A DNA stretch of 64,000 nucleotides, from NCBI GenBank assembly GCA_022649665.1, contig JALCOL010000002.1:124001-188000 (forward strand). The letters run 5' to 3'. The DNA comes from Enterococcaceae bacterium (GTDB lineage: Bacteria; Bacillota; Bacilli; Lactobacillales; Enterococcaceae). Both the position numbers and the translations under genes were made by a program. The stretch's first letter is position 1; the number at the start of each line of letters is the position of its first letter. The notes under the pieces were generated by a model that did not search any database, was not told where the DNA came from, and saw nothing but the letters and a program-made list of their open reading frames with translations. This document shows, piece by piece, positions 13,268 through 63,708 of the stretch.

Positions 13268-14314
13268 ATGGAAAAAATCAAGAAGTTCATTTCAAAAAGC
13301 TATGGGAAGCTAAAATCATTTTTCAGCAAAAATAATGCAGAAATTTTCTCCAGATGGAAGCGTTGGACAGCCACGATCGATGGTCAACTAGTCTTATCGA
13401 TTCTCTTTTTTCCTTACGGGGGTTATCTGCTCTGGAAAAAAGCAAAGCTAAGAAATTCAACGAAAATCGTCATTACATTAGGTATTTTATTTGCACTGTT
13501 CGGATTTCTGACTTCAAATGCGAATGCTAATGATTATACTTCTGCAAAAGCAGCTAATGATGAGCTGCAAGAAGAAAACAGTCAGCAAAAAGAAAATATT
13601 CGTTTATTAAATAGTGATTTGCAAAATTTAAAAACCAACAAAAAAGAATATGCGGCATATAAGAAAAAAATGTCTTCTTACGAAAATTTAGCGGAAGAAG
13701 AAGCGAAGAAAAAAACCGCAGATCTTGAAGCAATCAACAGTGTCAAAGAAAAAATCAATAAGCTGCCAAGTGTTTCATTTATGAGTCTAAGTGCTAAAAG
13801 CAGTATTGAAGAAGCAAGAAAATCATACGATGGGTTAACCGATGAACAAAAGCAATCATTTGATCTTTCGAAATTAGAAGCGGCAGAAGCAAAAATCGCA
13901 GAACTTACCAAAGCTGAGGAAGAACAGGCCGCAGCTGCAAAAAAGGCTGAAGAAGAAAAAGCTGCAGCAGAACAGAAGAAAAAAGAAGAAGAGGCAAAAG
14001 GTTACGATACCGGTATTACGTATGATCAACTCGCCCGCACACCGGATGATTATCTGTTCAAAAAAGCGAAATTTTATGGAAAAGTCGTTCAAATCATGGA
14101 AGATGATGAGGAAACAACGATCCGATTAGCGGTCGACGGCAATATTGATACAGTGATCTACGGGCAATATAAGAGCGACCTCGTTAGCCAGCGTGTTTTA
14201 GAAGATGACTTTATTACCATTTCGGGCATATCTTCAGGATTGGTTTCATATAAAGCAACGATCGGCGGAAAAATTACGATTCCATCGATGTCGATCCAAA
14301 AGATCGATCAATAG
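13268..14314 (+). CDS. Membrane-anchored coiled-coil protein, unknown function
   Basis: 348 residues with GGAGGGG before the ATG. Two hydrophobic stretches near residues 42-58 and 66-82 (LVLSILFFPYGGYLLW; IVITLGILFALFGFL) are followed by a long Glu/Lys/Ala-rich coiled coil (about residues 95-240). The C-terminal domain of about 100 residues begins GYDTGITYDQLARTPDDY and resembles the OB-like domains seen after coiled coils in Firmicutes membrane proteins. Probably an envelope protein with its C-terminus outside. Family not firmly recognised. Confidence 0.75.
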   Translation: MEKIKKFISKSYGKLKSFFSKNNAEIFSRWKRWTATIDGQLVLSILFFPYGGYLLWKKAKLRNSTKIVITLGILFALFGFLTSNANANDYTSAKAANDELQEENSQQKENIRLLNSDLQNLKTNKKEYAAYKKKMSSYENLAEEEAKKKTADLEAINSVKEKINKLPSVSFMSLSAKSSIEEARKSYDGLTDEQKQSFDLSKLEAAEAKIAELTKAEEEQAAAAKKAEEEKAAAEQKKKEEEAKGYDTGITYDQLARTPDDYLFKKAKFYGKVVQIMEDDEETTIRLAVDGNIDTVIYGQYKSDLVSQRVLEDDFITISGISSGLVSYKATIGGKITIPSMSIQKIDQ

Positions 14315-50914: not shown

Positions 50915-51281
50915 ATAACAATAACAATAATTCTAAATGCTTCAAATGTCTTGATATCATCAAGAATCAGGTGATTTACACAAACTTATTATGTTATTTA
51001 TTCATTTGGAAGAACGATAATAGCAAGAAACGGCTTTGTTTTGTTTAAAAAAATCATTATTTATCAAAAAAGGCGCCTATAAATTGCTATTTTGATAAAA
51101 TAGCGCAATTTTTCCTCATATAATAAACACTGTAAGATAGAGTTTTATAGTTAGGGTGATTTGGCAGCTATATTACTTATTTTGTTTTGGATCAAATTTT
51201 TGAAAAGGTTCTCAAATCAATTTTTATGGAAAAGGTGGAGGAAAAGCAATGAAGAAGAAAATAAAATTGGAGGGAAAACCA
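50915..51281 (+). promoter_or_regulatory. AT-rich leader and promoter region of the pilus locus
   Basis: No convincing gene in about 370 bases. A hairpin AAATTGC-TATTTT / AAAATAGCGCAATTT (51081-51111, a 2-nt bulge) lies just before TATAAT at 51119-51124. The best -35 candidate (TTGATA, 51092) is 21 bp away, so the promoter probably needs an activator. Two ribosome sites follow (GTGGAGGA before ATG 51249, TTGGAGGG before ATG 51282). Confidence 0.55.
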
Positions 51282-52880
51282 ATGAACAAGAAAGTGCAAA
51301 AAATAATTTTTGCAGCAATGGCGCTCAGTGCAATGGTTCCCGCGGGGATCGGTTTGTCAGCAGTCGTTCCGTTTGGAGGAAATACGCAGGTCGTTGAAGC
51401 AGCAGCAGATCAGAATAACCGAGAAATCGTCATTCATAAGTATGACGGATTGACAACGAATCCGCCAAAAGATGCAGGGACAGGTGAAAAAATAACAGAT
51501 CCGCATTATTTTGATGGTCGCAACCCAGTTGCAAATGTTCAATTTACGATCAAGAAGATCAAACCGGCTGTTGGACTAAAATGGGCTGACGTCGATCCCA
51601 AAGTTGACAGTACTTATCAGGAGGATACGACTTTCACGGCAACATCTCAAAATACAAATTCGGCAGGGACAGCGACATTTACTTTAGGGACTGACACGAC
51701 ATTTGATGGATATTATTTAGTGACAGAAAATGATTCTAAATCAGTCCAAACCCCGGCTGATCCATTCATCGTTCAGATCCCAACGACGGTCGAAAATAAG
51801 ACAACGCCTAACAATCCGACAGTTTTGTATTCAGTCAATGTCTATCCAAAAAATGAGTTGATCGATACGAATACTGATTTAAATTTGAATAAATTAGTTG
51901 ACGGCAAAAAATTCAAGGGCGCTTCAGCTGGTCAAACGATCCCATGGCAATTGTCCGTCAATGTTCCAAAAGATATCGTCTCAAACAGTGTGAACGCATC
52001 TGTTTTTGAGATCCATGATACCGTCAATGCAAATTTGGAAAATATTACAGAGCCTGTCGTAAAAGCCGGAACAGACACATTGACTGCGACGACAGACTAT
52101 ACTGCAACAATTACTGGCAATCAGCTCGACATCGTGTTTACGGACGCTGGGAAAACGAAATTAGGAACGCACACTGCCGATCAAGTCACGGTCGATTACA
52201 ATGCGGATGTCAAAAAAACATTTGAAACTGGCCGGATCGATAACGTCTTCAGTGTGAATTATACCGCTCCTTCGGGTGTGAAATACGACCAAGCACTCAA
52301 ACCGGAAAAAGCGGGCGACCCGAATACGCCGAACACGAACAACGGCAAAGGCAACAAAACAACGCCAGCGACATACACCGGCGGCTTTGATATTTTGAAG
52401 ACGGATGAAAATGCACATCCGCTCGCTGGAGCTGAATTCGTTATCTTGGTGGATGGAAAAACCGTCAAGAAAGATGGCAATAAAGTGATCCTTCCTAACG
52501 ACGCTGGGTATGCAGATAAGCTGGATGATTACACAGTTACCACGGGGGCTGACGGAAAAGCGCAATTCGTCGGTTTAGGATTGAGTGACATTGACGCAGA
52601 CACAGGCAACGATGTTTCGCGTACGTATACGCTGAAAGAAATCAAAGCACCAGACAATTACAGCATGATCGCGAAAACGATTGATGTCAAAGTCGATCTG
52701 TCAACACTGAAGAATGACACTCCGGAAGCAACGATCGTCAATGAGAAGAAATTCATTCTTCCACTGACCGGGGGTAATGGCTACATGGTATTGATCGTGA
52801 TCGCAGCGGCAGCCGGCATCATGCTCTTTGTTGCCAAACGCAAGAAAGATGAAGAAGAAGAAAAAACGGAAACGAAATAA
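51282..52880 (+). CDS. Major pilin, LPXTG-anchored (SpaA-like)
   Basis: 532 residues from ATG 51282; an in-frame ATG at 51249 with its own ribosome site would add 11 residues. Signal peptide (about residues 1-41), pilin motif VNVYPKN near residue 187 with the Lys used by pilin sortases, and an E-box-like YTLKEIKAPDNY near 455. Cna-B-type domains (FDILKTDENAHPLAGAEFVILVDG) are suited to isopeptide bonds, and a C-terminal LPLTGG, hydrophobic helix and Lys-rich tail follow. It polymerises into the pilus shaft. Followed by a hairpin and 230 bases before the sortase genes. Confidence 0.93.
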   Translation: MNKKVQKIIFAAMALSAMVPAGIGLSAVVPFGGNTQVVEAAADQNNREIVIHKYDGLTTNPPKDAGTGEKITDPHYFDGRNPVANVQFTIKKIKPAVGLKWADVDPKVDSTYQEDTTFTATSQNTNSAGTATFTLGTDTTFDGYYLVTENDSKSVQTPADPFIVQIPTTVENKTTPNNPTVLYSVNVYPKNELIDTNTDLNLNKLVDGKKFKGASAGQTIPWQLSVNVPKDIVSNSVNASVFEIHDTVNANLENITEPVVKAGTDTLTATTDYTATITGNQLDIVFTDAGKTKLGTHTADQVTVDYNADVKKTFETGRIDNVFSVNYTAPSGVKYDQALKPEKAGDPNTPNTNNGKGNKTTPATYTGGFDILKTDENAHPLAGAEFVILVDGKTVKKDGNKVILPNDAGYADKLDDYTVTTGADGKAQFVGLGLSDIDADTGNDVSRTYTLKEIKAPDNYSMIAKTIDVKVDLSTLKNDTPEATIVNEKKFILPLTGGNGYMVLIVIAAAAGIMLFVAKRKKDEEEEKTETK

Positions 52881-53109: not shown

Positions 53110-54036
53110 ATGAAAAAAGAGGAAAAAAAGAAGAAAAAAAAATCCGCTTCTTACTACTTTTGGGACATTTTGACAAAAGCGGCATTTATCGTGATGATCT
53201 TGGCGCTTCTTTATCCTTTCGTCAGTGAATCGATCGAAAACCAGCGGCGCGGGACCATTACATCGAAATATGAAAACGCGATGAACAAAAAGACGCAGGC
53301 CGAACTGGACCGTGCGTTCGAGTTGTCGCAAAAGTATAACGAGGCGCTGTTCGATCAGCAGGAAGGGCGGCCGTTCACTCCGGTCGATTATCGTCAGATC
53401 TTTTTATACAATCCAGTGATGGCGTACTTAGAGATCCCGGCGCTCAAGATGGACAAAATGCCGATCTACTTAGGGACTTCGATGAACGATCTGGATAAAG
53501 GGCTGGGACATTTGGAGCATACATCGATCCCGGTCGGCGGCGATAATACGCGCGCGGTGATCACCGGTCATTCCGGTTTGAAAAACCAGATCTTGTTCAG
53601 CGATCTGAACAAGCTTGAAAAAGGCGACGTGTTCTACGTCCATATTTTCAGCCGCACGATTGCTTACCAAGTCGATCAGATCGAAACGATCCGGCCGGAA
53701 GAAGTCGATAAAGTTAAAATCATTCCCGGGAGAGACTTGGCGACACTGCTCACATGTACGCCGATCGGGATTAACTCGCACCGCCTGCTCGTGACCGGGA
53801 AACATATTCCGTATTCGAAGAAAGTGAAGAAGAAAGCACCAGTCGTCCAGCGCAATTTCTGGAATATCCAAAATATCGGACTTTTGATCGCGTTCCTTTT
53901 GATCCTGCTGTTCATCTTATTCAAACTGTTCAAGATGTATCAAAAACGGCGCGACCGCAAAAAACAGGAAGAGCTGGAAAAGCAGGAGATCAAGAGTCAA
54001 GAAAAAGCTGAAAAAGACGATCAGGAAGATCAATAA
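53110..54036 (+). CDS. Class C (pilin) sortase
   Basis: 308 residues. N-terminal basic stretch, first membrane helix (ILTKAAFIVMILALLYPFV) and a second helix near the C-terminus (IGLLIAFLLILLFILFKLF), the two-anchor layout of class C. The catalytic His is in ITGHSGLKNQILFSDLNKL near residue 160, the Cys in LATLLTCTPIGINSHRLLVTG near 217, with the Arg 9 residues on. It links pilin monomers through the Lys of the YPKN motif. Downstream of the major pilin. Confidence 0.93.
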   Translation: MKKEEKKKKKKSASYYFWDILTKAAFIVMILALLYPFVSESIENQRRGTITSKYENAMNKKTQAELDRAFELSQKYNEALFDQQEGRPFTPVDYRQIFLYNPVMAYLEIPALKMDKMPIYLGTSMNDLDKGLGHLEHTSIPVGGDNTRAVITGHSGLKNQILFSDLNKLEKGDVFYVHIFSRTIAYQVDQIETIRPEEVDKVKIIPGRDLATLLTCTPIGINSHRLLVTGKHIPYSKKVKKKAPVVQRNFWNIQNIGLLIAFLLILLFILFKLFKMYQKRRDRKKQEELEKQEIKSQEKAEKDDQEDQ

Positions 54037-54053: not shown

Positions 54054-54740
54054 GTGAAAAAAGACAAAAAAGCGAAAAGAAGCTTTCTGGCGCTTTTAAG
54101 TATTTTGCTGATGCTGTTCGTCGCGACGATCTGGGTCTTCAACTATCAGACAACGCTGCCGGCAAAAACCGTTTCCGCTGATACGATGATCAAAAATGAT
54201 GCGAAGCGCGGCGATTTCGATCCGAACGACTTGAAGCCGATCACCCAGACCGAGCTCTTGGCAAAAGGATTGACAAATTTCGGCGAATACGGCGGGATCG
54301 GCAGCATCGTGATCCCGAGCATCTCGCTTGCGCTGCCGATCTATAAAGGCTTTTCGGGAAATAATCAATATCTCGGCGCTTGTACCGGCTGGGAAGACCA
54401 AGTGATGGGAAGCGGAAACTATGTATTATATGGACATAACGGGATCGAAGGCTATCTGTTCAGCCATTTGAAAGACGTTGCACCAGGCGACGCGATCTAT
54501 ACGACCGATGGAAAAAATGTGTATTACTGGAAAGCGGCAAAAACCTTGATCGTTGATCAGTCAGAAGTCGGCTATGTCACAAGTACCCCGCGTGAAGCGG
54601 AATTGACGCTGGTGACGTGCCACGGCGGTGACGGAACGACCCAGCGCTTTGTCGCGATCGGCAAATTGTACCGCACGCAGGCTGTTCAAGAGGCGCCGGC
54701 GAAGATCACAGCGATGCTCGGCATCGACACGCAAAAATAG
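54054..54740 (+). CDS. Sortase, single N-terminal anchor (class A-like)
   Basis: 228 residues, GTG start with AGAGGCGG upstream. One N-terminal helix (SFLALLSILLMLFVATIWVF); no C-terminal anchor. His in NYVLYGHNGIEGYLFSHLKDV, Cys in AELTLVTCHGGDGTTQRFVAIGKL with Arg eight residues after. Differs from the neighbour in lacking the C-terminal helix. It may attach the finished pilus or the BspA-like proteins to the wall, or polymerise the minor pilin. Its specific target is not visible. Confidence 0.88.
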   Translation: MKKDKKAKRSFLALLSILLMLFVATIWVFNYQTTLPAKTVSADTMIKNDAKRGDFDPNDLKPITQTELLAKGLTNFGEYGGIGSIVIPSISLALPIYKGFSGNNQYLGACTGWEDQVMGSGNYVLYGHNGIEGYLFSHLKDVAPGDAIYTTDGKNVYYWKAAKTLIVDQSEVGYVTSTPREAELTLVTCHGGDGTTQRFVAIGKLYRTQAVQEAPAKITAMLGIDTQK

Positions 54741-54755
54741 AAGGGAGGGCATACC

Positions 54756-55445
54756 ATGAAGAAAAGCAAATTTCAGCGGATCATCGGTTTTCTGATTTTT
54801 TCTGCGGCAGCGCTCTTCGCTTTTTTGCCGAATGCATTCGCCGATAGTACCCAAGCAAGCGACATCCAGATTTTGATCACTAAAACCAGTACTGGTGAAG
54901 CACAAGGAAACAGCCAGCCGATCAGCGGCGTGCCATATACGGTGAAAAAAATCAAAAGCAAAACGCAAAGTCTGCCGACAGTTAGCGACCCTGCATCCTA
55001 CGAGATCGTGACGGGAAGCGCGGCCCTGACGCTTTCAGGCACAACGAATGCCGCGGGCAATCTTCAATTCGGCGCTCGCGATGGCTTGGTACCCGCGATG
55101 TATTTGATCGAAGAAGGAAAAAGCGATTATCCGTCGCCCGCCCCTTTGATGCTCATCCAGCTGCCATATCGCGATCCGGAAACGCAGCAAATGGTTTATC
55201 AGATCCATTTGTATCCAAAAACGGAGCATCAGACGGTCATCCCGCCGAATGATCATAAAACGACGAATGGACAAACTGGCAATGTGCCCGCACCATCTGC
55301 GAGAACCTTGAAAATGCTGCCGAAGACCAGTATCGCAAAAGAGACGGCTCTTAAAGGACAGCTGCTTACCCTGCTAGCAGTCGCAAGTGTGGGCACCGCG
55401 GCAACCGGGATCTGGTATGTTAGAATGAAAAAATCCGCAAGATGA
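54756..55445 (+). CDS. Minor/basal pilin-like LPXTG protein
   Basis: 229 residues with AAGGGAGGG upstream. Signal peptide ending AFADS, one Cna-B-like domain (ISGVPYTVKKIKS; LTLSGTTNAAGNLQFG; GMYLIEE-like AMYLIEEGKSD), YQIHLYPKTE resembling a pilin motif, then LPKTS, a hydrophobic helix and RMKKSAR. LPKTS deviates from LPXTG at the last position, which could direct it to one of the two adjacent sortases. Last clear pilus gene before the BspA-like set. Confidence 0.85.
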   Translation: MKKSKFQRIIGFLIFSAAALFAFLPNAFADSTQASDIQILITKTSTGEAQGNSQPISGVPYTVKKIKSKTQSLPTVSDPASYEIVTGSAALTLSGTTNAAGNLQFGARDGLVPAMYLIEEGKSDYPSPAPLMLIQLPYRDPETQQMVYQIHLYPKTEHQTVIPPNDHKTTNGQTGNVPAPSARTLKMLPKTSIAKETALKGQLLTLLAVASVGTAATGIWYVRMKKSAR

Positions 55446-55480: not shown

Positions 55481-58123
55481 ATGAAAGAACTGATCGAGAG
55501 AAAGGGCTGTTTTTTGATAGGAATATTGATCATCGTTCTTTCAAATTTTCTGCCCTTTCTGGCTTTTGCGCAAGATGAGGCACCGCTTTTTCCCTATGAT
55601 ACCGTGCAAGTCGATGGCGAAGAAAAAGAAAAAAATACTCTGGTATTGGAACGCAAAAAAGGCATACCGGCTGCACACATCATTTCGCTGAAAGGCAACA
55701 GAGATGGCAAGCTTTCGATCGCGAAAACTTCGGAGTTTGCGATCGAACCGTTAACAGCGGAGACGAATATTACCACTCGCCAAGAAGATGGCAAAGAAGT
55801 CGTCGAGATCCCGTTGAGCCAAGGGAAAGTGACGAGCTTCAAGCTCACGCTTGCCGGTGAAGGGACAGCACAAGCGCTCAACGCGACCTTTGCCCCGTTT
55901 GAAAAAGAAACGCGTTCACAAGGTCCAGCTGAACCGCAGCTGGCACTTGCCCCTTTTGTGTTTCAACTTGCAGAAATCAAAACATTGGCTGAAACGTCTG
56001 TGGTCACCAGCAGCTCTTCCGCTGCGAGGACAACGGAGCGCCGCAACGAAAAAGCCGCAGCTCCTGAAATCGCAGCTCCTGAGATCCCAACGATCCAGCG
56101 GGCCCCGGTCGGAGCAACGATCACGCAAACCGGTCTGATCGGAACGTGCAAATATGAACTTGACGATGCGAAAACGCTGACGATCTATCCCGGCGAAATG
56201 GATCCAGCCGTGAAGCCAGCCGGATAGGTCGATATGGCTACATTCCGCAATGATTTTCAGGAGTCGGTGATGCGAGTCAAATTCAGCTCGGATGCCTCCG
56301 GCGGAAAGATCATCCCGCCAAAAGACAGTTCTAAGTTATTATCGGACATAGCATCAAATGAACGTCAGAGTTTTTTTGCTGGAGTTCAAGAAATCGATTT
56401 TGCGGGAAACTTCGATACGTCAAATGTTGTGAATATGTCCTCAATGTTTTCAGGTGATCGCGATTTACAGACGATCAAAGGGCTTGATGATTGGGATACT
56501 TCAAAGGTAACGAATATGTCTTCAATGTTCGAAAAAAATGGAAAAATAAAGACATTTGATGATATCGGTAAGTGGGATACTAGCAAAGTTACGACGATGG
56601 CATCGATGTTCAGCAGCATGAGTGAGCTTAAAGAAATCAATACATTGGAACATTGGGACCTTTCGAATGTTACCGAATTGTCCGGGATGTTTTGGCGGTG
56701 CGGTAAATTAGTGACGCCTGGCGATTTGAGCGAATGGAATATTTCGAAGGTGACAAATCTCACTGTAATGTTTAATGATTGCGTTAGCTTGGAAAAAATC
56801 GGAAATATCACTAAATGGGACACTTCAAGTGTTCGCAGCATGTACTATACGTTTAGCGGTGCCAGGAAGATCACTACTGAAGATATTGGTGACTTAGGAA
56901 CTTGGAATGTAGCAAACATGACAGATTTTGTTGGTATTTTTGAGAATACGGCTTCTCTATCGGTATTGAATTTTAAAGATTGGCAAATGGGCGATAAAAC
57001 GAATCATGCTTCAACGATGTATATGCTCTCTGGTTCAGGAATCACTAAAATTATTTTAGGAGACAAAATAAACGTCAATATTGACTTGCCAACACAAAAA
57101 TTAGGACATGGGTCGTCAAATAGAGACACATGGAAATTTTGGTGCGGCGTTGGCGAAAATTATGGCGGCACCGAAAATCCGCAAAAATTGGAAGGTGAGA
57201 TCTTGAGCAGCAATCCATATATTCGATCACCCTACATGTTAAAAAATGATGCGGATACATATCTGATTGCTAAACCGAAATTAAAGGCAATCGATATTGC
57301 AGTTAAAGATGCCTGGGATAAATCTACGGGAATCGGGAATGTTGACTTTTATCTCTACAATGATCGAACGTATTCTTTGCCAAAAGGAGATGTTCAAGTT
57401 ACTGCTAACGTGTTTGGAGATAGGATCAGTTTGCGAACAAATGAGCTTGGAAATTTCAGAGTCGAGAGTATGCCGGCTACAAATTTTTATCAATATTTTT
57501 TCTATCAAATAAATGACTCATCAGCTTTATGGTATCAAAAATATTGGCCTCTGGTAGATGTCCTGGATGATGCATTTCTTCGAGCGAAAAAGATCAATCT
57601 GCAAAACACCGAGGCGACTGGTACGATCACACCGAAACCAGACAACCCGATCTACATGGTCCCGCGGGTCTCGATTCGGATCAATGCAACGGACGACAAG
57701 GGAAAGCCGGTCGCAGGGGTCAAGCTAGTACTGCATGATAAAAACGGCAATGTCGTCACCAAACTCGGCAGCAAAAACTTTGTCCAGCCGGTCACGGGAA
57801 AAGACGGCACTGCGACGATCAAAGATTACTATATCGAAAATCCTGAAGACTATAGTTTGCAATTGGACAAATCGCTGCCGGCAGGATTCGATCCGGCGAA
57901 CGGCGAGATCTTTACCGCCGACACGACGACCCCGAGCAAAACACTCGTTCATTTCGGCGGGGCGTACAATATCGATGTCAAACTGAAACAAGCTGAAGTC
58001 GTGCTGCCGATGACGGGCAGTGACGATCTGGGCGATTGGGGAACCGTTCTTTTCGGTGCCGGCGATCTAACACTGGCCGGCTTGATCTTCAAAACGATCA
58101 AACGGAAATACGGCTTGAGATAG
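55481..58123 (+). pseudogene. BspA-like (DUF285 repeat) LPXTG surface protein gene 1, interrupted by in-frame TAG
   Basis: One frame from ATG 55481 to TAG 58121, with a single internal TAG at 56225-56227. In the paralogue at 58150 the matching codon is TCG (GCC-GGA-TCG), so a C to A change explains it. Upstream part: signal peptide and N-terminal domain ending YPGEMDPAVKPAG. Downstream part: about seven DUF285 repeats (WDTSKVTNMSSMF type), a linker domain, a Cna/prealbumin-like domain and LPMTG with membrane anchor. Either a 248-residue secreted fragment is made, or translation reads through or restarts at ATG 56234, which would lack a signal peptide. Confidence 0.85.
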
Positions 58124-58149
58124 AAGTTCATAGAAAGGAGTGGAAATAA

Positions 58150-60894
58150 ATGAAAAGACTTGTTCAAAAAAGAATCGCCGGGATCGCAGGAATCTTGTTC
58201 ATCGTTTTTTCAAATTTTCTGCCCTTTCTGGCTTCTGCACAAGACGAGGTGCCGCTTTTCCCATATGATACCGTGCAAGTCGATGGCGAAGAAAAAGAGA
58301 AAAGCAAATTGGTGCTGGAGCGCAAAAAAGGCACACCGGCTGCACACATCATTTCGCTGAAAGGCAATAGAGACGGCAAGCTGTCGATCGCGAAAACTTC
58401 GGAGTTTCTGATCGAACCGTTAAAGGCGGAGACGAATATTACCACTCGCCAGGAAGACGGCAAAGAAGTCGTCGAGATCCCGTTGAGCCAAGGGAAGGTG
58501 ACGAGTTTCAAGCTCACGCTTGCCGGTGAAGGGACAGCGCAAGCGCTCAACGCGACCTTTGCCCCGACTGAAAAAGAAACGCCGCCGCAAGGCCCAACTG
58601 AACCGCAGCTGGCACTTGCCCCTTTTGTGTTTCAACTTGCAGAAATCAAAACATTGGCTGAAGCGCCTGTGGAAACCAGCAGTTCTTCCACTACGAGGAC
58701 AACTGAGCGCCGCAACGAAAAAGCCGCAGCTCCTGAAACCGCAGCTCCTGAAACCGCAGCTCCTGAGATCCCAACGATCCAGCGGGCCCCCGTCGGAGCA
58801 ACGATCGTGAAAACCGGTTTGATTGGGACGTGCAAATATGAACTTGACGATGCGAAAACGCTGACGATCTATCCCGGCGAGATGGATCCGGCCGTGAAAC
58901 CGGCCGGATCGCTCGACATGGCGACGATTCGCAAAGTTTACAGTCATCAAGTTTCGCATATTAAATTTGTTTCTGACAGTTCCGGCGGGAAAATTATCGC
59001 ACCAAAAGATAGTTCGAAGCTTTTTGAGGGGAAAACATCACTCAGCGGACCAAATGCATTTGATTCTTTGGGGACAATTGATTTCGGTGGAAATTTTGAC
59101 ACTTCAAATGTTGTGAATATGTCGGGAATGTTTGCAAACGATCAAGAGTTGAGTGAATTGAGTGATCTCTCTTCATGGGATACTTCTAATGTTGCTGATA
59201 TGTCGGCAATGTTTAAAATGAATAAAAATTTAACCAAACTTGAAGGGCTCTCCTCTTGGGATGTTGCCAATGTTACCAATATGTCCGAAATGTTTTCCGG
59301 AATGGAAAAGATCACTTCATTTGATGACATCGCAAATTGGAATACTAATAAAGTCGAGAATATGCGGGCCCTTTTTTCTAACAATAGGAGTATCACTTCC
59401 TTATCGTTTATGCAAAATTGGGATGTTTCCCATGTCAAAGATCTTGGGAGTATGTTTACTAGTTGTAATAATTTAGTAACGGTTGGAGATTTGAGCGGTT
59501 GGGATATTTCAAGTACAAAAAGTATTGGTGGAATGTTTAGCGACTGTACAAGTTTAAGAACGGTAGGCAATCTTACTAACTGGGATACATCAAATGTAAC
59601 AGAAATGTCTTATATGTTTGCGAACGCAAATAAAATAACTACTGAAGAAATTGGTGATTTAGGCAGTTGGGACACATCCAAAGTCGAAAGTTTTGCGGGC
59701 CAATTTTACAACACTTCTTCACTATCTACGTTGAATTTTAAAAATTGGCAGATGGGTAGTGAAAAGTATTATCCTTCTGTAGACCGAACGTTGGAAGGAT
59801 CAGGAATCACAAAAATATCGTTAGGGGATAAAATAAATGTCAATCTTAAGCTGCCAGTTCACAAGCTCGGACGCGATTCCGCGGATAAAAGCAATTGGAA
59901 GCTTTGGTGCGGCGTTGGCAAAAAATACGGGGGTATAGAAACTCCACAAGATCTAGAAGGGGAGATTCTGACTTGGGATCAATACAGCAGATATAAGCTG
60001 ACAAAAGTAAAGAGCGATCCTGACACTTACGTGATCGCCAAACCAAAAACAAAAACTGTTGATATCACCGTAAAAGACGCTTGGGAACAATCAAACGTCA
60101 TCGGCGGGGTACAGTTTTATCTATTTAACCAAAGAATCGGATATGATAGTGCGAGCGATGGTTCTTACGACGTCTTTACTGATTATATAAAGCCAAAACT
60201 TATTACAAATTCGTTTGGGAAAATTGTTGTTGATAATATTCCGGCAACAAATTTTTATTCCTATGCGGTGTACTACTCAGAATCAGAATCACCATTAGCG
60301 AATCAAAAATATTGGCCATTGGAGCCCACACCCGATTTGAATAACTATCAAAATCCGACATCAATTGAGCTTGTGCAAAATGAGGCGACTGGTACGATCA
60401 CACCAAAACCAGACAACCCGATCTACATGGTCCCGCGGGTCTCGGTCCGGATCAATGCAACGGACGACAAAGGAAAGCCGGTCGCAGGGGTCAAGCTAGC
60501 ACTGCATGATAAAAACGGCAAGGTCGTTACCAAGCTCGGCAGTAAAAACTTTGTCCAGCCGGTCACGGGAAAAGACGGCACTGCGACGATCAAAGATTAC
60601 TATATCGAAAATGCGGAAGATTACAGTTTGAAATTGCTTCAACCGCTGCCGGCGGGATTCGATCCGGCGAACGGCGAGATCTTTACTGCTGACACGACGA
60701 CCCCGAGCAAAACACTCGTTCATTTCGGCGGGGCGTACAATATCGATGTCAAATTAAAACAAGCTGAAGTCGTGCTGCCGATGACGGGCAGTGACGATCT
60801 GGGCGATTGGGGAACCGTTCTTTTCGGTGCCGGCGATCTAGCGCTGGCCGGGTTGATCTTTAAAACGATCAAACGAAAATACGGCTTGGGATAA
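58150..60894 (+). CDS. BspA-like (DUF285 repeat) LPXTG surface protein 2
   Basis: 914 residues, AAAGGAG upstream. Signal peptide (about 1-35, ending ASAQ), an N-terminal domain (residues 36-250) with a PETAA repeat, then about eight 24-26-residue DUF285 repeats (FDTSNVVNMSGMF, WDTSNVADMSAMF, WDVANVTNMSEMF and so on) between about 310 and 540. After these come a linker, a Cna-B-like domain (VSVRINATDDKGKPVAGVKLALHDKNGKVVTKLGSK) and LPMTGSDD with a hydrophobic helix and RKYGLG. The ends are nearly identical in DNA to gene 1 while the repeats differ. Probable adhesin. Confidence 0.9.
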   Translation: MKRLVQKRIAGIAGILFIVFSNFLPFLASAQDEVPLFPYDTVQVDGEEKEKSKLVLERKKGTPAAHIISLKGNRDGKLSIAKTSEFLIEPLKAETNITTRQEDGKEVVEIPLSQGKVTSFKLTLAGEGTAQALNATFAPTEKETPPQGPTEPQLALAPFVFQLAEIKTLAEAPVETSSSSTTRTTERRNEKAAAPETAAPETAAPEIPTIQRAPVGATIVKTGLIGTCKYELDDAKTLTIYPGEMDPAVKPAGSLDMATIRKVYSHQVSHIKFVSDSSGGKIIAPKDSSKLFEGKTSLSGPNAFDSLGTIDFGGNFDTSNVVNMSGMFANDQELSELSDLSSWDTSNVADMSAMFKMNKNLTKLEGLSSWDVANVTNMSEMFSGMEKITSFDDIANWNTNKVENMRALFSNNRSITSLSFMQNWDVSHVKDLGSMFTSCNNLVTVGDLSGWDISSTKSIGGMFSDCTSLRTVGNLTNWDTSNVTEMSYMFANANKITTEEIGDLGSWDTSKVESFAGQFYNTSSLSTLNFKNWQMGSEKYYPSVDRTLEGSGITKISLGDKINVNLKLPVHKLGRDSADKSNWKLWCGVGKKYGGIETPQDLEGEILTWDQYSRYKLTKVKSDPDTYVIAKPKTKTVDITVKDAWEQSNVIGGVQFYLFNQRIGYDSASDGSYDVFTDYIKPKLITNSFGKIVVDNIPATNFYSYAVYYSESESPLANQKYWPLEPTPDLNNYQNPTSIELVQNEATGTITPKPDNPIYMVPRVSVRINATDDKGKPVAGVKLALHDKNGKVVTKLGSKNFVQPVTGKDGTATIKDYYIENAEDYSLKLLQPLPAGFDPANGEIFTADTTTPSKTLVHFGGAYNIDVKLKQAEVVLPMTGSDDLGDWGTVLFGAGDLALAGLIFKTIKRKYGLG

Positions 60895-60990
60895 AAATTC
60901 TAAGTCAGGCGAAAAAATGCAAATTATAGTAAAATATAGTAGTAGAGATAAATTGTTTTATGGGTGCTTTTTGAAAGGAGGGTGAGGTTG

Positions 60991-63612
60991 ATGAAAGGGT
61001 TGTTTAAAAATAAAGGCTGGTTGATGCTTGGTGTTTTGATCATCGTTTTCTCAAGCTTTCTGCCTCTCCTGACTTTTGCGCAAACAGAAAGTTCGCTTTA
61101 TCCATATGATGCGATCTCAGTCGACGGGCAGGAAAAAGAGAAAACGACGCTCGCGCTGGAACACAAAACGGATGCTTCCAGTAGTTACGTCATTACGCTG
61201 AAAGCCAGCATGGACGGCAAACTGTCAGTTGAAAAAGCGCCAGATGCGGCGATCGAACAATTGGCCGCGGAAGAACAAAAAAGTGCGGCCAATCCGGTCG
61301 TTGTGACGACGCACCAAGAAGAGGGCAAAGAATATACCGATCTTCAATTGAAAAAAGGCGAATCGGCGAGCTTTAAAGTGACCCTGCAAGAGAAGGGGAC
61401 GCTGAAAGAGTTGGACGCTTTATTCACGCCGGATCCGAAGACGGATCTCGCGGCGCCGGCTGAAACGGAGCCCGCTGTCCAGCCGTTTACTTTTAAATTG
61501 TTTGATATCAAAACGGCGGAGACTACGCCGACGACAACGTCTGCTTCCAGCAACTCAACTACTTCATCGACAACGTCTAGTACTGAGACAAGTACGACGA
61601 CTTCAGCTACGCCGGCAAACGATCCGCCGAAACGCGTGAAACGAGATCTTGTTCAGTCTTCGCAAGGATATATCGGAACGAGTCCATATTCTTTGAACGA
61701 TTATGGAAATTTAACTATCTTTGCAGGCAACATGGGTTCAACTTGGTCTGGCGGGATCGATATGAAAACTTTCCGCACGAATTACGGTTCACAAGTGAAA
61801 ACGATCAAGTTTGTCACAAGAGAATTAGGGCAAAAGACGATTGCGCCTGTTGACTCAGAAAATCTTTTTCGCGGGGCAGGCGGCACCGATATTTTCCCGA
61901 ATCTTGAGACGATCGATTTTGGGAATAGTTTCGATACAAGCAAAGTCACTAATATGAATGGGATGTTTTCTTCCCTCCCTAAGCTAACGCAGATCAAGGG
62001 GCTTGAAAATTGGGATACCTCGAGTGTCACGAGCACTGCTTGGATGTTTCTCGATGACAAAGTGCTGACTTCGATCGGCAATATCGGCGGCTGGCAGATG
62101 GGCAAAGTCACGAATACTGCCGGCATGTTTTGGGGGGCCAATAGCCTCACCGAGATGGGCGTTCTTGATAATTGGGACGTTTCCAAAGTGACGACGATGC
62201 AGCAAATGTTCGGCTATTGTTACTCAATGAGTACATTCGGCAATTTGAGCCGCTGGAATGTTTCCAATGTGACGAATATGTCTTATATGTTTACTGGTGA
62301 ATTTGGCGGGTTAAAGACGCTCGGCGACATCAGCAACTGGGACGTCTCCAAAGTGACGACGATGACACAAATGTTCAACGGGGTGCAAGTGCTGAATACC
62401 GCTGAACTTGGCGACTTGGGGAACTGGAATGTGGCGAATGTGAAGAACTTCAATGAAATGTTTCGCATTACTGAAAATCTATCCACCCTTAATTTTAAAA
62501 CTTGGCAGATCGCTAGCGATGCAGATGTCGGCAACATGTTGGACGGTTCCGGGATCACTAAGATCATTTTGGGCGAGGGCATTCAAAAAACGATCACGCT
62601 CCCCGGACAAAAACTGCGCATCGGCTCCAAAGAAAACGGCGACTGGACTGCTTGGGTCGGGGTCGGCACACAGTTTGGCGGTTCTGAAGCTGCTCCGGAA
62701 GGCGAAGTCTTAACGGCGAAAACATATCTCAGTCAAACGAATAGCGCCGATACCTATATCATCGCCAAACCGAAAGTCCAAGCGATCGATCTTCAAGTCA
62801 ATGATGCGTGGAAGCCCGCGGCCGGGGTTCCGAACATCAAATTCACGATCACCAACAATAATGCAAAAGTTCCAGATGCGGCGATCAATGAAGATGCGTT
62901 CGGCGATGCGGCGACGTTCGTGACAGATGCGAACGGCAAGATCTTGACGCGCTATATGCCGGCCACTGCCTTTTATGATTACCAGGCACAAGAAGATCTG
63001 GCGAATTCGAATCAAAATTACTGGCCGCTTGCCGAAGTGCCGGATGCCGCTTCGCCGGTCGCGACGGTTTATGAGATGCAGGAAAATGATACTTCAGGAA
63101 CGATCGCGCCGGTTACGCCGATTGAAAATCCGCTTTATGTCGTGCCAAAAGTCGTGATCCATATCAATGTACAAGACACGGACGGCAAGGCTGCCCCGCG
63201 CGTTTACTTTGAACTGCTGGATGAAAGCGGCACGCCAGTCACTCAGCTCGGCAGCAAGACTTTTGTTCAGCCGGTGACCGGCGCTGACGGCAGCTATACG
63301 ATCGAAAATTACTATATCGAAAAGCCTGGGAACTATACGCTGAAGATCGTGAAAGACCTTTCCGCCGGCTATGATCCGGCAAACGGCGATACGTTCACTG
63401 CCGATACAGAAGATTCGACAAAAACGCTGATCAATTTTGGCGGCACATACAATATCAATGTGAAAGTCGTCAAAAGCAAGATCATCTTGCCGCTGACCGG
63501 CGGCACAGGATTTATTCCGTGGATCACAATGATCGTGATCACGAGCGGGATCTTAGCAGTTGGTTTAGGCGCAAAACGAAAGAAAAAAATGAAAACAGTC
63601 AAGAAGTCGTGA
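60991..63612 (+). CDS. BspA-like (DUF285 repeat) LPXTG surface protein 3
   Basis: 873 residues from ATG 60991, with GAAAGGAGGG upstream. Signal peptide ending TFAQ, N-terminal domain similar in layout to proteins 1 and 2, and a Thr/Ser-rich linker (TTTSASSNSTTSST type). There are about eight DUF285 repeats (FDTSKVTNMNGMF, WDVSKVTTMQQMF, WNVSNVTNMSYMF) near residues 310-500, then a Cna-B-like domain (VVIHINVQDTDGKAAPRVYFELLDESG) and LPLTGGTG with anchor. It is more diverged and more GC-rich than the other two, so it looks like the older copy. It has its own upstream gap of 96 bases. Confidence 0.9.
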   Translation: MKGLFKNKGWLMLGVLIIVFSSFLPLLTFAQTESSLYPYDAISVDGQEKEKTTLALEHKTDASSSYVITLKASMDGKLSVEKAPDAAIEQLAAEEQKSAANPVVVTTHQEEGKEYTDLQLKKGESASFKVTLQEKGTLKELDALFTPDPKTDLAAPAETEPAVQPFTFKLFDIKTAETTPTTTSASSNSTTSSTTSSTETSTTTSATPANDPPKRVKRDLVQSSQGYIGTSPYSLNDYGNLTIFAGNMGSTWSGGIDMKTFRTNYGSQVKTIKFVTRELGQKTIAPVDSENLFRGAGGTDIFPNLETIDFGNSFDTSKVTNMNGMFSSLPKLTQIKGLENWDTSSVTSTAWMFLDDKVLTSIGNIGGWQMGKVTNTAGMFWGANSLTEMGVLDNWDVSKVTTMQQMFGYCYSMSTFGNLSRWNVSNVTNMSYMFTGEFGGLKTLGDISNWDVSKVTTMTQMFNGVQVLNTAELGDLGNWNVANVKNFNEMFRITENLSTLNFKTWQIASDADVGNMLDGSGITKIILGEGIQKTITLPGQKLRIGSKENGDWTAWVGVGTQFGGSEAAPEGEVLTAKTYLSQTNSADTYIIAKPKVQAIDLQVNDAWKPAAGVPNIKFTITNNNAKVPDAAINEDAFGDAATFVTDANGKILTRYMPATAFYDYQAQEDLANSNQNYWPLAEVPDAASPVATVYEMQENDTSGTIAPVTPIENPLYVVPKVVIHINVQDTDGKAAPRVYFELLDESGTPVTQLGSKTFVQPVTGADGSYTIENYYIEKPGNYTLKIVKDLSAGYDPANGDTFTADTEDSTKTLINFGGTYNINVKVVKSKIILPLTGGTGFIPWITMIVITSGILAVGLGAKRKKKMKTVKKS

Positions 63613-63708
63613 CAAAAGTGCGCAGCTTCGAGATAAGAAGCTGCTTTTGGAACACTGTTTATTCAGAGATCGGGAAGCGTGACGATTCATGTCACGCTTC
63701 CCTTTTTT
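63608..63708. repeat. Short copy of the intergenic repeat with terminator
   Basis: ACAAAAGTGCGCAGCTTCGAGATAAG, then a core variant (GAAGCTGCTTTTGGAACACTG) and TTTATTCAGAGA, then a terminator. Lacks the middle hairpin of the long form. It closes the surface-protein island. Confidence 0.7.
63672..63708 (+). terminator. Terminator of the surface-protein island
   Basis: GGGAAGCGTGAC pairs with GTCACGCTTCCC, followed by six T. Confidence 0.93.

Follow-up and report, generated by a model that had tools for sequence, protein, structure and literature searches.

Downstream of a pilin-sortase operon in an Enterococcaceae bacterium, three genes on one strand encode BspA-type surface proteins, and the first two share closely similar ends around strongly differing, AT-rich centers. 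How did this layout arise, and does it serve antigenic variation by cassette exchange, as an earlier note on this DNA had proposed? We addressed these questions in a window of 64,000 nucleotides (assembly GCA_022649665.1, contig JALCOL010000002.1, positions 124,001 to 188,000; GC content 0.47), which lies inside a 302-kb contig of a draft genome of 2.37 Mb in 26 contigs that is ~95% complete. The explanation we favor, with a probability of roughly 0.6, is that ordinary homologous recombination made chimeras of the tandem adhesin genes 1 and 2, the centers having been imported from low-GC relatives. The features of the locus are listed in Table 1.

Table 1. Features of the surface-protein locus, with positions in the window.
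Feature	Position	Strand	Basis or remark
LPXTG major pilin of the SpaH/EbpB family, with which the surface locus begins	51249..52880	+	NF033902, E 1.9e-64; SpaA and Gram_pos_anchor domains
Class C (pilus) sortase	53110..54036	+	NF033745 above curated cut-off
Second sortase	54054..54740	+	TIGR01076 above cut-off
Minor pilin	54756..55445	+	PF16555 GramPos_pilinD1
Gene 1, whole span (interrupted)	55481-58123	+	Two ORFs
Gene 1, 5' piece up to amber codon, with signal peptide and N-terminal domain	55481..56227	+	248-aa ORF
In-frame amber codon TAG of gene 1 (TCG in gene 2), first codon of diverged segment	56225-56227	+	Sequence
Gene 1, 3' piece: DUF285 repeats, linker, SpaA-like domain and LPMTG anchor, without signal peptide	56234..58123	+	629-aa ORF; DUF285, E 5e-40
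5' homologous block	Gene 1 55520-56224 / gene 2 58189-58908	+	0.91 identity
Diverged AT-rich center	Gene 1 56225-57610 / gene 2 58909-60381	+	0.59 identity
3' homologous block	Gene 1 57611-58120 / gene 2 60382-60891	+	0.94 identity
Gene 2, uninterrupted, 914-aa BspA/DUF285 LPXTG protein	58150..60894	+	ORF; DUF285, E 7.7e-48; TIGR02167 PARCEL repeat, E 2.8e-27
Gene 3, BspA/DUF285 LPXTG paralogue of native composition	60964..63612	+	DUF285, E 2.3e-50; pairs with gene 4
Linker and SpaA-like domain of gene 3, tract homogenized with the distant gene 4	62590..63465	+	0.88 identity vs. 0.63 upstream
Terminator-like hairpin at locus end, 3' of gene 3	63672..63702	+	13-bp stem, then T6

Judging from their sequences, the products of genes 1-3 are BspA/DUF285 (PARCEL-repeat) LPXTG proteins. 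PF03382 matched the 3' piece of gene 1 and genes 2 and 3, and TIGR02167 matched genes 2 and 3. Inspection of the gene 2 and gene 3 translations revealed a signal peptide, an LPXTG motif (LPMTG in gene 2, LPLTG in gene 3), a membrane helix and a basic tail; the Pfam anchor model gave no score. A likely alternative start codon of gene 3 is the ATG at 60991. The structure model of the gene 2 product, which with a mean pLDDT of 55.6 is poor overall and reliable mainly for the solenoid, shows a confident solenoid at approximately residues 220-530. A search of the PDB with this model gave no match at E < 0.001, and no solved structure was found by sequence either.

The earlier note had missed the interruption of gene 1. 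The amber codon cuts it in two, and the annotation is hereby corrected: one of the two tandem genes is interrupted at the join. Its pieces are predicted to be a secreted stub without an anchor and an unsecreted remainder with one. With signal peptide and anchor on separate halves, gene 1 does not encode a sortase-anchored protein, and only gene 2 of this pair should therefore reach the cell wall. The amber codon could be the result of one point mutation, and its coincidence with the start of the diverged segment is at most suggestive. An ATG follows 6 nt after the amber codon (56225-56234); reinitiation is possible there and would yield a product without a signal peptide.

When the codon alignment of genes 1 and 2 was segmented by maximum likelihood, four segments were preferred over one (BIC 2611 vs. 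2999.6), with sharp breakpoints in gene 1 at 56224/56225 and 57610/57611. The drop in identity between ends and center amounts to 0.31, against a maximum of 0.10 in 1000 codon permutations. Thus, divergence is not uniform along the genes, and the strong difference between the centers that had been seen by eye holds. The coordinates of the homologous blocks also agree within ~12 bases with those given before. However, to call the ends identical was too strong, since their identity is 91-94% and the first 39 bp of the genes (55481-55519 in gene 1) are diverged again (0.44 identity). At the other side, homology stops near the stop codons, and diverged sequence lies beyond. A 15-bp tandem repeat coding for AAPET/AAPEI is present three times in gene 2 (58721-58773) and twice in gene 1 (56056-56085).

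In the gene 2 product, the diverged center corresponds to residues 254-744, i.e., the leucine-rich-repeat solenoid and the linker. The 5' breakpoint (residue 254) lies ~35 residues into the modelled solenoid, and the 3' breakpoint (residue 745) just ahead of the SpaA-like domain (match to PF17802 at 765-817, just short of the cut-off). Thus, the exchanged piece would consist of the solenoid plus the linker and not of a clean domain.

The segments differ in age. At synonymous sites, genes 1 and 2 have diverged by ~0.2 in their end blocks, whereas their centers are saturated (~2.1). The proportions of synonymous and non-synonymous differences (pS/pN) are 0.20/0.05 in the N-terminal block, 0.71/0.33 in the DUF285 region, 0.70/0.31 in the linker and 0.16/0.03 in the C-terminal block, and the bootstrap intervals of pS at the ends (0.16-0.20) and in the center (0.70-0.71) do not overlap. 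Hence, the ends stem from a recent common ancestor and the centers from an old one. Since dN/dS in the center is ~0.2, fast protein evolution is not the cause of its divergence. When gene 1 or 2 is compared with gene 3 or with gene 4, the fourth BspA paralogue, pS is 0.69-0.85 in all four segments.

The centers also deviate in composition. The GC content at fourfold-degenerate sites (GC4) of gene 1 is 0.39 in the center (71/182) vs. 0.68 at the ends (Fisher p = 2e-8), and that of gene 2 is 0.39 (79/204) vs. 0.69 (Fisher p = 1e-9). In 44 other genes of the window, GC4 is 0.656 +/- 0.073 (range 0.42-0.81). Gene 3 has no such contrast (0.70 vs. 0.65; 0.68 in its DUF285 tract), so that the AT-richness noticed earlier, relative both to the ends and to gene 3, is borne out at synonymous sites. 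The DUF285 tract of gene 4 is mildly AT-rich (GC4 0.45, p = 0.02). GC3 in gene 1 is 0.33 in the center vs. 0.56 outside, with change-points at 56318 and 57584, and those of gene 2 lie at 58933 and 60412. The 5' composition junction is located at 56303-56357 in gene 1 vs. 58915-58957 in gene 2 (likelihood-ratio statistic 6.3), and forcing one common junction costs 3.1 log-likelihood units. This modest difference faintly hints at separate imports into the two genes. Elsewhere in the window, a 348-aa ORF at 13268-14314 has an unusually low GC content (GC4 0.42) and no Pfam match.

Gene 4 is located elsewhere in the genome (L048:7304-9925, contig C1), between a cysteine-desulfurase-like gene and an oxidoreductase-like gene as judged by eye from the translations. 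Genes 3 and 4 make up another mosaic pair, with an identity of 0.63 as far as 62589, then 0.88 in the homogenized tract and 0.64 beyond. What has been homogenized here is the linker and the SpaA-like domain, and not both ends as in genes 1 and 2; in either pair, the DUF285 region belongs to the diverged part. As controls, sixteen DUF285 loci from relatives were sampled, and within-genome pairs were kept if at least 300 codons aligned with more than 50% identity. The two control pairs showed identities of 0.60-0.75 and 0.46-0.66 along their length without a contrast between ends and center; thus, the mosaic pattern is not built into DUF285 genes. Among the four copies of this one strain, the pairing ((g1,g2),(g3,g4)) was found in every module with resolution, the short 5' start alone lacking it, and hence no swap among resident copies was seen.

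A donor was sought in collections of genome contigs and viral contigs, in genomes of the family and order (with N- and C-terminal profiles) and in plasmids, but none was found. Apart from distant DUF285 matches, the searches gave a few weak matches near the threshold, one of 53 residues to the N-terminal region and two short ones. The linker-plus-C-terminal region was found in none of the other genomes searched. Because no donor of the linker or the C-terminal module was found, composition is the single line of evidence pointing to import. Low-GC donors are plausible, since GC4 is 0.11-0.39 in the DUF285 tracts of those Lactobacillales genomes that were sampled, most of which belong to the same family. 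DUF285 surface proteins are frequent on enterococcal and lactococcal plasmids, and a ComEC homologue is present in the genome. No flanking repeats suggestive of site-specific recombination at the modules were found.

According to the import scenario, the N-terminal block and the C-terminal anchor block would derive from a recently shared copy, either by recent duplication or by gene conversion, and the solenoid and linker would be old and AT-rich, as if taken from low-GC relatives carrying homologues. The conserved ends may have served as arms for recombination, presumably of the RecA type, with an incoming center. The same secretion-and-anchoring frame would then display a different binding module, possibly with an effect on binding, and gene 1 may now be a decaying copy or a passive reservoir.

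Homogenization of the ends between old paralogues would explain much of the pattern equally well. Here, the ends would be homogenized repeatedly by gene conversion while the repeat-rich centers, no longer similar enough to pair, drift apart without any import. The constant pairing of the four copies is expected under such homogenization alone, and it counts against import. So does the start of the homologous block, which lies at 55520, already within the gene; the sequence ahead of it is diverged, as is that past the stop codon. Moreover, a converted tract exists in genes 3 and 4 despite their location on different contigs. What favors import is solely the foreign-looking composition: native paralogues that escaped conversion should match the synonymous composition of the host, but GC4 of the centers is 0.39 vs. 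0.66. Nor can GC-biased conversion of the ends account for gene 3, whose DUF285 tract is also unconverted and has kept a native GC4. We consider concerted evolution without import a possible but less likely explanation.

Active antigenic variation, in which the center of a silent gene 1 would be copied into gene 2 as the site of expression, appears improbable. It would agree with the conserved arms around both centers, with the interruption of gene 1 at the join and the loss of its in-frame export signal, and with the description of mycoplasma DUF285 genes as sequence reservoirs (PMC2824730, PMC2996958). However, gene 1 is the single possible donor. In the ~95%-complete genome, no DUF285 copies or silent cassettes were found beyond the four DUF285 genes, three of them intact, which is unlike the pilE/pilS or vlsE type of system with one expression site and several silent cassettes. 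No PF00078 match was obtained in the genome either, so that neither a reverse transcriptase nor a diversity-generating retroelement was detected. Furthermore, the centers are not common to the resident copies, and the evidence comes from one assembly and from relatives outside its genus. Of the original proposal, the recombinational mosaic thus stands, on the sharp breakpoints, the synonymous saturation confined to the centers, the native-like ends and the non-native centers, but antigenic variation is not supported. Equally speculative is a minimal two-gene variation unit in the pilus operon, in which the copy disabled for export by the amber codon at the cassette boundary would feed solenoid-plus-linker modules through the conserved arms into its expressed neighbor and be refreshed by low-GC imports.

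An assembly artefact, i.e., a misjoin of reads from several strains or copies or an amber codon produced by a wrong base call, might be suspected in a draft of 26 contigs, but is very unlikely, since genes 1 and 2 share no exact match longer than 84 bp, a length that ordinary reads can resolve, and the locus is embedded within its large contig. It is hardly credible that a whole gene was duplicated recently and that its binding domain then diversified under positive selection or at a mutational hotspot. In favor of this reading, DUF285 plausibly makes the binding contacts, and it is here that both pairs have diverged. However, the synonymous saturation of the center (pS 0.71) with its low dN/dS rejects selection, and an abrupt change in synonymous GC that nearly coincides with the breakpoints is not what a hotspot would produce.

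The type of mosaic is already known, and this locus adds another case. The tipC genes of Streptococcus mitis and the staphylococcal esaG genes, which encode immunity proteins, are tandem paralogues with high-identity blocks around a variable region, and their recombination was proved by many copies, several strains and tree conflicts between variable regions (PMC9484751). Genes 1 and 2 likewise have high-identity blocks at both ends of a diverged center, but the four copies come from one strain and show no tree conflict, and the composition shifts in the center. The repeat family and the tandem paralogy are shared with the DUF285/PARCEL genes of mollicutes, such as the drp genes of Mycoplasma agalactiae, which are horizontally mobile and of which untargeted or silent copies have been proposed as reservoirs (PMC2996958; PMC2824730). 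In contrast to these, the proteins described here are cell-wall-anchored LPXTG proteins encoded behind a pilin-sortase operon, the mosaicism is intragenic with conserved ends, and no mobile element was identified beside the locus. With the BspA-family leucine-rich-repeat adhesins of Lactobacillales, they have the DUF285 repeats in surface proteins in common, but not the linker-plus-C-terminal region. The locus thus provides a measured case of domain-level recombination in Gram-positive BspA-type adhesins, in which the secretion and anchoring frame is shared but the solenoid, the putative binding part, has had a history of its own that is probably foreign. If other strains confirm the mosaic, it would explain how such adhesins gain new binding specificities.

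A second pilin-type cluster, comprising a 1198-aa SpaA-domain LPXTG protein and a pilin, is found ~6 kb beyond the end of the window (L060:6703-11662), and two tandem paralogues of the GDSL-lipase family lie immediately 3' of the locus (L060:808-2132).
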